DNA of 64,000 nucleotides from contig VGCH01000009.1 in the NCBI GenBank assembly GCA_016870115.1, positions 62,001 through 126,000 on the forward strand, read 5' to 3'. Below the pieces are notes generated by a model. It saw nothing but the letters and a program-made list of their open reading frames with translations, was not told the DNA's origin and searched no databases. Of this stretch, positions 50,760 to 54,101 are shown piece after piece; within the stretch, counting starts at the first letter, position 1, and the number at the start of each line of letters is the position of its first letter. The translations under genes were made by a program, and so were the position numbers. This DNA comes from Alphaproteobacteria bacterium. Lineage in GTDB: Bacteria > Pseudomonadota > Alphaproteobacteria > Reyranellales > Reyranellaceae.

Positions 50760-51305
50760 ATGGCATATCCCCTCCCCCCGCCCAAGCGCCGCGCCGTGCT
50801 GGGCGCCGCGCTCGCGGCGAGCGCGCTCGCCGCCGTGCCGGCGCGCGCGGCGGGTCTTGCGAACCTGCAGCGCCACGCCGCCCCGCGTCCCGTACCGGCC
50901 CTCGAATGGATCGACGCCGACGACAACCTGCGAACGCTGGCGCCGCTCGCCGACCGAGTCATCGTGATCAATTTCTGGGCGACTTGGTGTGTTCCCTGCG
51001 TGAAGGAGATGCCGAGCCTCGACCGGCTGCAGGGCGCGTTCCCGGTGGAGAAGCTGGTCGTCTTGCCGCTGTCCGTGGACGGTCCGTCACGCCCGCGCGT
51101 AGCACCATTCTATCGCGACCGCGGGCTCAGGCACCTCGGTATCTTCTTCGATCGCGGACGCAAGACCATGCAGGCGCTCGGCGTCACCGTGCTGCCGACC
51201 ACACTGGTGATCGACCGCGACGGGCATGAGGTGGCACGGCTGGAGGGCGAAGCCGAATGGGATTCCCCCGACGCCCTCGCCTACTTTCGCGGGCTGGTCG
51301 CCTAG
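50760..51305 (+). CDS. TlpA-like exported thiol:disulfide oxidoreductase
   Basis: 181 residues from the ATG at 50760. An N-terminal Tat/Sec signal (PPPKRRAVLGAALAASALAA, cleavage near ARAA) precedes a thioredoxin fold with INFWATWCVPCVKEMPSLDR (redox pair C-V-P-C) and cis-Pro in GVTVLPTTLVIDRDGH. It would reduce or isomerise disulfides in the periplasm, for example during cytochrome c maturation. The argH-tlpA divergent arrangement is common in alphaproteobacteria. Confidence 0.9.
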   Translation: MAYPLPPPKRRAVLGAALAASALAAVPARAAGLANLQRHAAPRPVPALEWIDADDNLRTLAPLADRVIVINFWATWCVPCVKEMPSLDRLQGAFPVEKLVVLPLSVDGPSRPRVAPFYRDRGLRHLGIFFDRGRKTMQALGVTVLPTTLVIDRDGHEVARLEGEAEWDSPDALAYFRGLVA

Positions 51306-51383
51306 GACCAAGCCGACCACACCGCGTTGCCTGACACGTCCATCCCCTCTACTCTCCGCGCGGGGAACTTGGGGGAGCTGGAG

Positions 51384-51898
51384 ATGGGGAAGTTCGGGAT
51401 CGCAACCTTAGCTGCGTTGCTGGCGCTGTCGATTGCGCCTATCGCGGTCGCGCAAACCAGCACGATCGCATCGGCGGGGTACTGGAAGGCATTTGGCGGG
51501 CGGTCGAACGACGGCACGCCGGTGTGCGGCATGTCGGCGTCCGGGAAGGGCCTGTTCTTCTCGATCAAGCTCTACAAGAACGACGACCGATGACCGTCCA
51601 GCTCGGCTCAGACCGCTGGAAGCTCAAGGACGGCGCCAAGCAGAAGATCGTGATGCGCTTCGATCGCCATTCGCCGTGGAACGCGGTCGGCACCGGCTTC
51701 CACTTCAAGGACGGCGATGCCGGGCTCGAGCTCTCGGTCGGTGTGAAGAACCTGGAGACCTTCCTGACCGAGTTCGCACGCAGCCGCTCACTGCGCATCG
51801 AGTTCGATGGCTCGAATGTCGAAGGCTGGACGGCCGATCTCACCGGCACCGCCGCGGTGACCGAGGCGTTCGCCAATTGCGTCCAGAGGCGGTTGTAG
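51384..51898 (+). pseudogene. Secreted hypothetical protein interrupted by a -1 frameshift
   Basis: The first frame (51384-51593) encodes a signal peptide (MGKFGIATLAALLALSIAPI, cleaved near AVAQ) and YWKAFGGRSNDGTPVCGMSA, ending FSIKLYKNDDR-TGA. The second frame (51590-51898, 102 residues) continues MTVQLGSDRWKLKDGAKQK to TAAVTEAFANCVQ. The two join naturally if one base is restored at about 51590; stop and start overlap as ATGA. Good GGGGGAG precedes the first ATG. Either a recent frameshift or sequencing error, or two coupled genes. The single-domain look favours a broken gene. I do not recognise the function. Confidence 0.7.
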
Positions 51899-51933
51899 TC
51901 CGACCGCGCTGAGCGCGCGCGGCGACGCCCGCG

Positions 51934-51956
51934 GGGAGCCGTTCGCGGTTCCCTTT
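51934..51956 (+). terminator. Hairpin with TTCG loop after the frameshifted gene
   Basis: GGGAGCCG-TTCG-CGGTTCCC: an 8-bp stem with one G:T pair and a TTCG tetraloop, followed by TTTA. It is 36 bases past the second frame's stop. A short T-run makes it a moderate intrinsic terminator. Confidence 0.6.
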
Positions 51957-51985
51957 ACCGGCCCGCCGCTCTAGGCTCGCGGCCG

Positions 51986-53167
51986 ATGGCGCGCGTGCTG
52001 CTCACTTGGGAATACGGGCTCGGCATCGGCTATGTGGACCGGCTGGTCCAGGTCGCCGAAGCGCTGGAGCGCGAGGGCCACGAACCCGCCTTCGTGCTGC
52101 GCGATCTGGTCTCCACCGCCGATTTCCTGCGCGGCCGGTCGTGGCTCGTACTGCAGTGCCCGCTGTCGATCGGCGTCCTGCATCCGACGCAGCCCAGCTT
52201 CTCGCCCGGGAGCTACGCCGACCTGTTGGCGGTCAACAATTTCGCCGACGAGGAGCAGCTCTTCCGTCTGGTCGCGGCCTGGCACGTGCTGTTCCAGGCA
52301 CTGCAGCCCGCGGCGATCGTCGGCGAATACGCGCCCGTCTCGGCGCTCGCCGCCATGGGGCGCGTCCCCTACATCGCCATGGGCCACGGCTATATCCTGC
52401 CGCCGCCGGACCGCGCCGAGTTCCCGATCTTCAATCCGGCGCTGCAACGCGCCGCGCCGCAGGAAACGCTGCTTGAGACCGTGCGCGCCGTGCAGCGGCG
52501 CCTCGGCGGCCCGGAGCCCGCCAGTGTGCCGTAGGCGGTGGGCGGCCTCGCACACTTCGTGACGGCGTTCCGCGAGACCGATCCCTACGCCGATCTGCGC
52601 GCCCAGGCGCATGCCGGTCCGCTGGAGGCGATCGATCCGCCGTCGCCGTTCCCGGAGCGGGCCAACTTCTATGCGTACCTCTCGGCAACGCATCCGCAGA
52701 TCGCCTCCTACGTGCAGGCGCTGGCCGACAGCGGGCTGCCGGGCTCGGTCTATGTGAAGCGGCTGACGCCGGAGCTACGGCAATATCTGCTGGAGCGCGG
52801 CGTCGCCGTCTATGACCGGCCGCCGCCGCTTCATCCCACGGTGCGGGCCGCGTCGGTCATCGTGCATCACGGCGGCATGGCCACCCTCACCACCGCGATG
52901 GGCGCGGGCCGGCCGCAGCTCCTGCTGCCCGAGCTCGCCGATCAGGCGATCAGCGCACAGACGATCGACAAGTTCGGCCTGTCGGTGAACGGGCGACGCC
53001 GGCTCGGCAACACCGCGCAGATCGCCCGCGCGATCCGCGAACTGGCCGACCCGGCCGGCGAAGCCGCCCGCTACGCCCAGACGGTCGCCGAAGCGATCCA
53101 AGCGCAGCGCGAGTACGGCAGTCTCGACCTGATGATGGCAACGCTTCGCAGCCTGATCGGCGCCTGA
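51986..53167 (+). pseudogene. GT-B glycosyltransferase (UGT/MGT-like) with in-frame TAG
   Basis: A single frame of 394 codons is broken by TAG at 52532-52534 (codon 183). The N-half (MARVLLTWEYGLGIGYVDRL, HEPAFVLRDLVSTADFLRG) is the acceptor domain. The C-half has the nucleotide-sugar site RAASVIVHHGGMATLTTAMG and RPQLLLPELADQAISAQTI. Both sides are intact and in the same frame, so one point mutation explains the break. A GTG two codons after the TAG could allow re-initiation, giving a split enzyme. TAG is used as an ordinary stop elsewhere in the window. Probably a recently lost gene next to another damaged gene. Confidence 0.78.
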
Positions 53168-53228: not shown

Positions 53229-54101
53229 TCACCTGGTCGGGACGGGCCGGTCGCCGGTGTAGTCGTAGAAGCCGCGCTTGACCTTGCGGCCGAGCCAGCC
53301 GGCCTCGACATACTTCACGAGGAGCGGACAGGGCCGGTACTTGGAGTCGGCCAGCCCTTCGTGCAGCACCTGCATCACCGAGAGGCAGGTATCGAGCCCG
53401 ATGAAATCGGCGAGCCCGAGCGGGCCCATCGGATGGTTGGCACCCAGCTTCATGCCGGTGTCGATCGCCTCGACATTGCCCACGCCCTCATAGAGCGCGT
53501 AGACCGCCTCGTTGATCATCGGCAGGAGAATGCGGTTCACGATGAAGGCCGGGAAATCCTCGGCATTGACCGGCTTCTTCTCCAGTCGCACGACAACTTC
53601 GCGCACGGTGCGGAAGGTCTCTTCCTCGGTCGCGATGCCACGGATCAGCTCGACGAGCCCCATCAGCGGCACAGGGTTCATGAAGTGCATGCCCATGAAC
53701 TTGCCGGGCCGGTCGGTGACCGAAGCCAGACGCGTCACCGAGATCGACGATGTGTTGGTCGCAACCAGGGTGTTGGGCGGAAGCTCGGGGCAGAGCTTCT
53801 TGAAAATCTCGCGCTTCACCGCCTCATTCTCGGTGGCCGCCTCGACGACCAGATCGCAATCGGCGAAGGCCTTGTAGTCCAGCGTTCCCTGGATGCGAGC
53901 CATCGCCGCATCCTTGTCCTCGGGCCGGATCATGCCGCGGCCGATCTGGCGATCCAGATTGCGGCCGATCTGGTCCATGCCCTTGTCGAGCCGGCCTTGG
54001 TCGACGTCGGCGATACGGATGTCGTAGCCCTTCAGCGCGCACACATGGGCAATGCCGCCGCCCATCTGGCCGGCGCCGATGACCCCAATTCGCTTGATCA
54101 T
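53229..54101 (-). CDS. 3-hydroxybutyryl-CoA dehydrogenase
   Basis: 290 residues, the typical single-function length. The NAD-binding motif is IGVIGAGQMGGGIAHVCALK. The catalytic His is in FMGMHFMNPVPLMGLVEL, with Asn in ANHPMGPLGLADFIGLDTCL. It interconverts acetoacetyl-CoA and 3-hydroxybutyryl-CoA, for butyrate or PHB metabolism. It follows etfA by 25 bases on the same strand, so the operon is etfB-etfA-hbd. This ties beta-oxidation electron flow to this step. Confidence 0.94.
   Translation of the reverse strand: MIKRIGVIGAGQMGGGIAHVCALKGYDIRIADVDQGRLDKGMDQIGRNLDRQIGRGMIRPEDKDAAMARIQGTLDYKAFADCDLVVEAATENEAVKREIFKKLCPELPPNTLVATNTSSISVTRLASVTDRPGKFMGMHFMNPVPLMGLVELIRGIATEEETFRTVREVVVRLEKKPVNAEDFPAFIVNRILLPMINEAVYALYEGVGNVEAIDTGMKLGANHPMGPLGLADFIGLDTCLSVMQVLHEGLADSKYRPCPLLVKYVEAGWLGRKVKRGFYDYTGDRPVPTR

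Follow-up and report, generated by a model that had tools for sequence, protein, structure and literature searches.

The stretch of DNA analysed here (the window, 64,000 nucleotides) comes from a draft genome of an alphaproteobacterium of the family Reyranellaceae and contains a glycosyltransferase (GT) gene whose reading frame is interrupted, in frame, by a single TAG at codon 183. The remainder of the frame is open, giving 393 codons in total when the stop is read as X. An earlier sequence-only reading had described two intact halves of one gene, in the same frame around this codon, with a GTG two codons further on, and both statements hold, the coordinates being exact. The locus, in order, comprises the following features.

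50760–51305, forward strand: TlpA/AhpC-TSA-type thiol-disulfide protein, normally encoded just upstream of GT (PF00578, 53.4 bits, searched from 50718)
51306–51985, forward strand: spacer of 680 bp between TlpA and GT (gap comparison with relatives)
51384–51593, forward strand: 5' part of an intervening gene, closed by a TGA that a one-base deletion brings into frame (frame continuous in L108 and L109)
51590–51898, forward strand: 3' part of the intervening gene in another frame, its ATG overlapping the TGA as ATGA (relatives' frames, DNA comparison)
51929–51948, forward strand: terminator-like hairpin 5' of GT (hairpin count versus shuffles)
51986–53167, forward strand: GT gene, from ATG at 51986 to TGA at 53165–53167 (open-frame reading)
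51986–52531, forward strand: N half of GT, 182 codons, open (aligns with orthologues in G001, G004, G007 and G037)
52532–52534, forward strand: in-frame TAG, codon 183 (sense codon in all spanning homologues)
52535–53167, forward strand: C half of GT, donor-site motif HHGG...GRPQLLLPE...Q intact (PF06722)
52538–52540, forward strand: GTG where translation might restart; G001 has it as an ordinary Val codon (alignment, anti-Shine–Dalgarno comparison)
53229–54101, reverse strand: 3-hydroxyacyl-CoA dehydrogenase (hbd), conserved downstream neighbour, intact (domain search, synteny)

Terminator-like hairpins are in no clear excess in this region (two found, against a shuffle mean of 1.2, sd 1.2).

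The C half of the GT matches the Pfam family PF06722 (EryCIII-like_C) at 45 bits, over the curated cut-off of 31.7, and its donor-site motif aligns with that of solved enzymes such as 9ke1 and CalG3. In this Pfam match and in its HHGG and PQLLLP motifs it resembles GT1-like glycosyltransferases with an EryCIII-like C domain, from which it differs in being interrupted and in lying far under the cut-offs of the NCBIfam subfamilies that it matches, including TIGR01426, the MGT macrolide glycosyltransferase model (28.5 bits versus 260). The solved relatives found by sequence, 9ke1 (a rhamnosyltransferase), CalG3 and YjiC, which we take to be GT1-like GT-B enzymes, match significantly over the donor-binding C half only. 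As the best Pfam match of the N half is below threshold (PF13579, 17.7 bits versus a cut-off of 29.7), the assignment of that half rests on its alignment with homologues. The window's own genome (G000) contains no second PF06722 copy, and a search for a redundant paralogue found none; the second DNA match covers just 35 bases of the opposite strand, 1.2 kb further downstream.

Homologues were drawn from 75 genomes of the family, 76 of the order and a class sample of 385. Every homologue that spans codon 183, the window excluded, is a single uninterrupted frame with a sense codon at that position (19 of 19 in the class search and 13 of 13 in the order search, or 32 of 32); two pieces from G025 and a second piece from G001, which do not span the codon, were left out of this count. 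Relatives carrying two separately conserved genes, the arrangement that would have told against the sequence-only reading of one broken gene, were sought and are absent, and an origin from two ancestral genes is rejected for lack of any split homologue. With X in place of the stop, the window gene can be aligned over its full length with two orthologues that have no interruption (62–63% identity). By these alignments the frame is not a product of chance, as homologues can be matched to it before and after the TAG, with no gap at that point.

The residues aligned at codon 183 in the 32 homologues (E 10, Q 7, D 7, A 4, S 3, R 1) indicate that the column is variable and hydrophilic, hence tolerant. 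G004 and G007 have alanine here and G001 a glutamine codon that is one transition from TAG, which bears out the earlier statement that a single-base change suffices. In the window GT, a single step would make a stop of 75 of the 393 codons, so that a nonsense change at this one is nothing special. The G001 gene itself runs off the end of its contig and continues at the beginning of another, the two overlapping by 15 nt; on this evidence it is cut by the assembly and not shown to be broken.

The gene has a patchy distribution in the family. Orthologues of at least 58% identity were found in only five of the 75 family genomes (G000, G001, G004, G007 and G025) and none in the other 70; TlpA-type matches were found in all 75. 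Genus g3 has the gene in one of its 65 genomes (G025), and the window's genus, g1, is represented by its own genome. This distribution makes the GT look dispensable to members of the family. Two of the five carriers have a broken gene, with different lesions: the TAG in the window and a foreign stretch in G025.

Where the gene occurs, its neighbourhood is conserved. The order argH–TlpA–GT is found in G001, G004 and G007; in the last two, whose contigs extend far enough, it is followed by hbd and etfA. All five genes (argH–TlpA–GT–hbd–etfA), with an uninterrupted GT, also occur in G037, which belongs to a different family of the same order, and because the arrangement is intact there we take it to be ancestral. 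The gap between TlpA and GT is 3 nt in G001, 9 nt in G004, 13 nt in G007 and 11 nt in G025, versus 680 bp in the window; spacing of only 3–13 nt in four relatives suggests that the two genes are probably co-transcribed. We also looked for traces of the gene in GT-less members of g3. Among the 23 TlpA–hbd intervals searched out of 29 fetched (L077, L083, L084, L085, L088 and L090 were left out), none held a GT remnant (tblastn to E 10; the best E, 0.31, is noise), and the GT slot was occupied by other genes or short spacers. The TlpA–hbd interval (L062–L089) is variable within this genus: the shortest measures 193 bp (L068), the longest exceed 1.2 kb, and gene content differs. A mobile-element or plasmid origin was considered and rejected, there being no DNA-level plasmid match, no viral-contig relative and conserved chromosomal synteny.

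The spacer between TlpA and GT in the window holds a gene that is itself damaged. Its frame changes after 'GACGAC', where it has one base fewer than its relatives L108–L110 (L108 being from G007), and the ATG that overlaps the resulting stop is a conserved internal Met in relatives. The product is a probable secreted protein; Pfam returned no family either for this gene or for its intact relative in L108. Among the relatives compared, only the window genome has the gene between TlpA and GT. The frameshift was found by eye and then confirmed by DNA comparison. The sequence-only reading had mentioned neither this frameshifted gene nor the separation of GT from TlpA, nor the differently broken GT in a related genome.

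A scan for lesions in 25 conserved blocks (22.7 kb, about one-third of the window, some of it at low identity), which compared them with relatives' frames and was filtered for shadow frames, found an in-gene stop in the GT only; the frameshifted gene lies outside these blocks. One other stop was flagged, upstream of the etfA start codon. An apparent further frameshift near 31.8 kb was rejected as a shadow frame over two adjacent genes.

In the second broken copy, in G025 (contig CAMDQJ010000053.1, L041 2863–6339), codons 1 to 117 precede some 2.8 kb of foreign DNA, beyond which the gene resumes at codon ~277 and runs to codon 392; about 160 codons have thus given way to the foreign stretch. 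The stretch begins with a transposase fragment (PF01527) and also carries a histidine-kinase/response-regulator frame and a radical-SAM gene. The missing codons were not found elsewhere in the G025 genome, which has two GT places only. The two GT pieces keep their order and strand, with TlpA ahead of them and hbd behind, which fits a real insertion accompanied by a deletion, although a chimeric assembly of this metagenome-derived genome is possible. The contig record is titled Asaia bogorensis, yet G025 is placed in a genus of the window's family, and the title may be wrong.

To judge the age of the stop, we compared selection on the two halves of the GT, a coarse measure here with synonymous sites near saturation. 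Against G025, the nearest sequence, the window's dN/dS was 0.21 for the N half (117 codons) and 0.23 for the C half (113 codons); for N and C halves respectively it was 0.26 and 0.37 against G001, 0.40 and 0.45 against G004, and 0.48 and 0.63 against G007, and the comparison of G001 with G004 gave 0.32 and 0.29. At sites conserved in the other three sequences, private replacements in the window numbered 18 of 121 in the N half and 29 of 127 in the C half, a difference that is not significant (Fisher p 0.14); the corresponding counts for G001 were 13 of 116 and 13 of 111. GC3 is 0.90 and 0.87 in the two halves, similar to argH and hbd. Similar selection on both halves points to a young stop with no long relaxation after it: selection appears to have acted on the C half during most, or almost all, of the divergence. 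The mild C-half excess in the window lineage would fit either a short relaxation or a faster C domain throughout the clade.

Taken together, these data make it probable that the GT is a young nonsense pseudogene, and of the three readings offered from the sequence this is the best supported, given the uninterrupted homologues and the decaying slot. In a GT1-like glycosyltransferase of GT-B fold, a sense codon at position 183 (Gln in G001) would have become TAG by a single substitution. Translation would then end at residue 182, leaving an N fragment that lacks the nucleotide-sugar-binding C domain, and no enzyme would be made. The loss would be part of a wider decay of the slot, in which a gene that originally lay right after TlpA, between argH and hbd, has become absent from nearly all family members examined, has been broken otherwise in G025 and has been split from TlpA here. 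Of its elements, the analysis shows the TAG itself, homologues that are uninterrupted, the conserved gene order, a frameshift next door and a genome with no second PF06722 gene; we infer the reality of the base, the lack of a functional product and the succession of events. Two points count against it, the modest excess of private replacements in the C half over the N half and the restart codon 3 nt past the TAG, and one lesion alone, in the sequence of one genome, is no proof of lost function.

The other two readings put forward earlier, and two more, need to be weighed against the pseudogene. If the TAG were a base-call or assembly error, the gene would be intact in the organism; one substitution would account for everything, both halves are conserved, and the genome is a draft in 59 contigs. 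We nevertheless think an error unlikely, given the independent and unlike lesion in the adjacent gene, the cleanness of the other conserved blocks compared and the apparent dispensability of a gene with no orthologue found in most of the family. Accidental substitution errors are also rare relative to natural pseudogenes. On the other hand, the frameshift next door could itself be an error, which would make a sequencing artefact at the TAG more credible. Read-through or recoding, with the TAG decoded as an amino acid and a full-length enzyme made, would suit the conserved C half and the tolerant position, but TAG terminates five of the 14 window genes inspected, TlpA among them, and no CTA anticodon occurs among the 39 tRNA genes detected in the genome, a list that is incomplete since no Tyr or Ile tRNA was seen; we give it almost no credence. 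The Tyr and Ile tRNA genes probably lie in assembly gaps or were missed by this first look.

A split enzyme, assembled from two halves of which ribosomes would make the second by restarting at GTG 52538 after ending at the TAG, is in our view very unlikely, and the earlier suggestion to this effect found no positive support beyond the short distance from stop to start. That distance makes restart physically possible, as a 2-nt distance still allows it in three E. coli gene pairs, with 5, 20 and 70% loss, in the work of Huber et al. (2023; PMC10666635), and the neighbouring broken gene likewise has a start overlapping its stop. The window GT is like the pairs described there in having a start codon very close to the stop, and unlike them in having no overlap, no conserved two-gene arrangement (none of the 32 homologues is split) and no Shine–Dalgarno support: the duplex energy of the GTG with the anti-Shine–Dalgarno sequence, −2.6, is within the range of the 21 in-frame start-like codons of the gene (−6.6 to +1.9). 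G001, whose frame has no stop, carries the same GTG, and 41 of the 390 GT codon positions tested (10.5%) have an ATG, GTG or TTG within the next two codons, so that its place two codons past the TAG is unremarkable by this count. In addition, the alignment suggests that the break falls some 25–30 residues before the apparent interdomain linker, and a restarted C product would thus carry a piece of the N domain. A broader version, in which the intervening gene and the GT, each cut where a pre-existing start follows, are expressed as coupled split proteins that still assemble, is a shade more doubtful again; if it were true, decay would be buffered by re-initiation.

For the young pseudogene, the closest comparison that we have is aaxB of Chlamydia trachomatis L2, a recent nonsense pseudogene for which Giles et al. 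(2009; PMC2720952) report loss both biochemically and across strains. On that account the two cases are alike in that a single stop interrupts a gene that is intact elsewhere along its length, the gene has been inactivated independently, in parallel, in relatives, and selection shows no sign of having relaxed, owing to how recent the loss is. They differ in that the loss proposed for the window comes from the sequence of one genome, and from an alphaproteobacterium rather than Chlamydia.

For annotation, the locus is a hazard, since two proteins would be called here where relatives make one. For the family, the interrupted glycosyltransferase would be an ordinary event, of small significance alone: a gene loss caught early. 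The gene keeps its ancestral place in the sister family and is missing from most of this one, and two of the five genomes that still have it carry dissimilar lesions.
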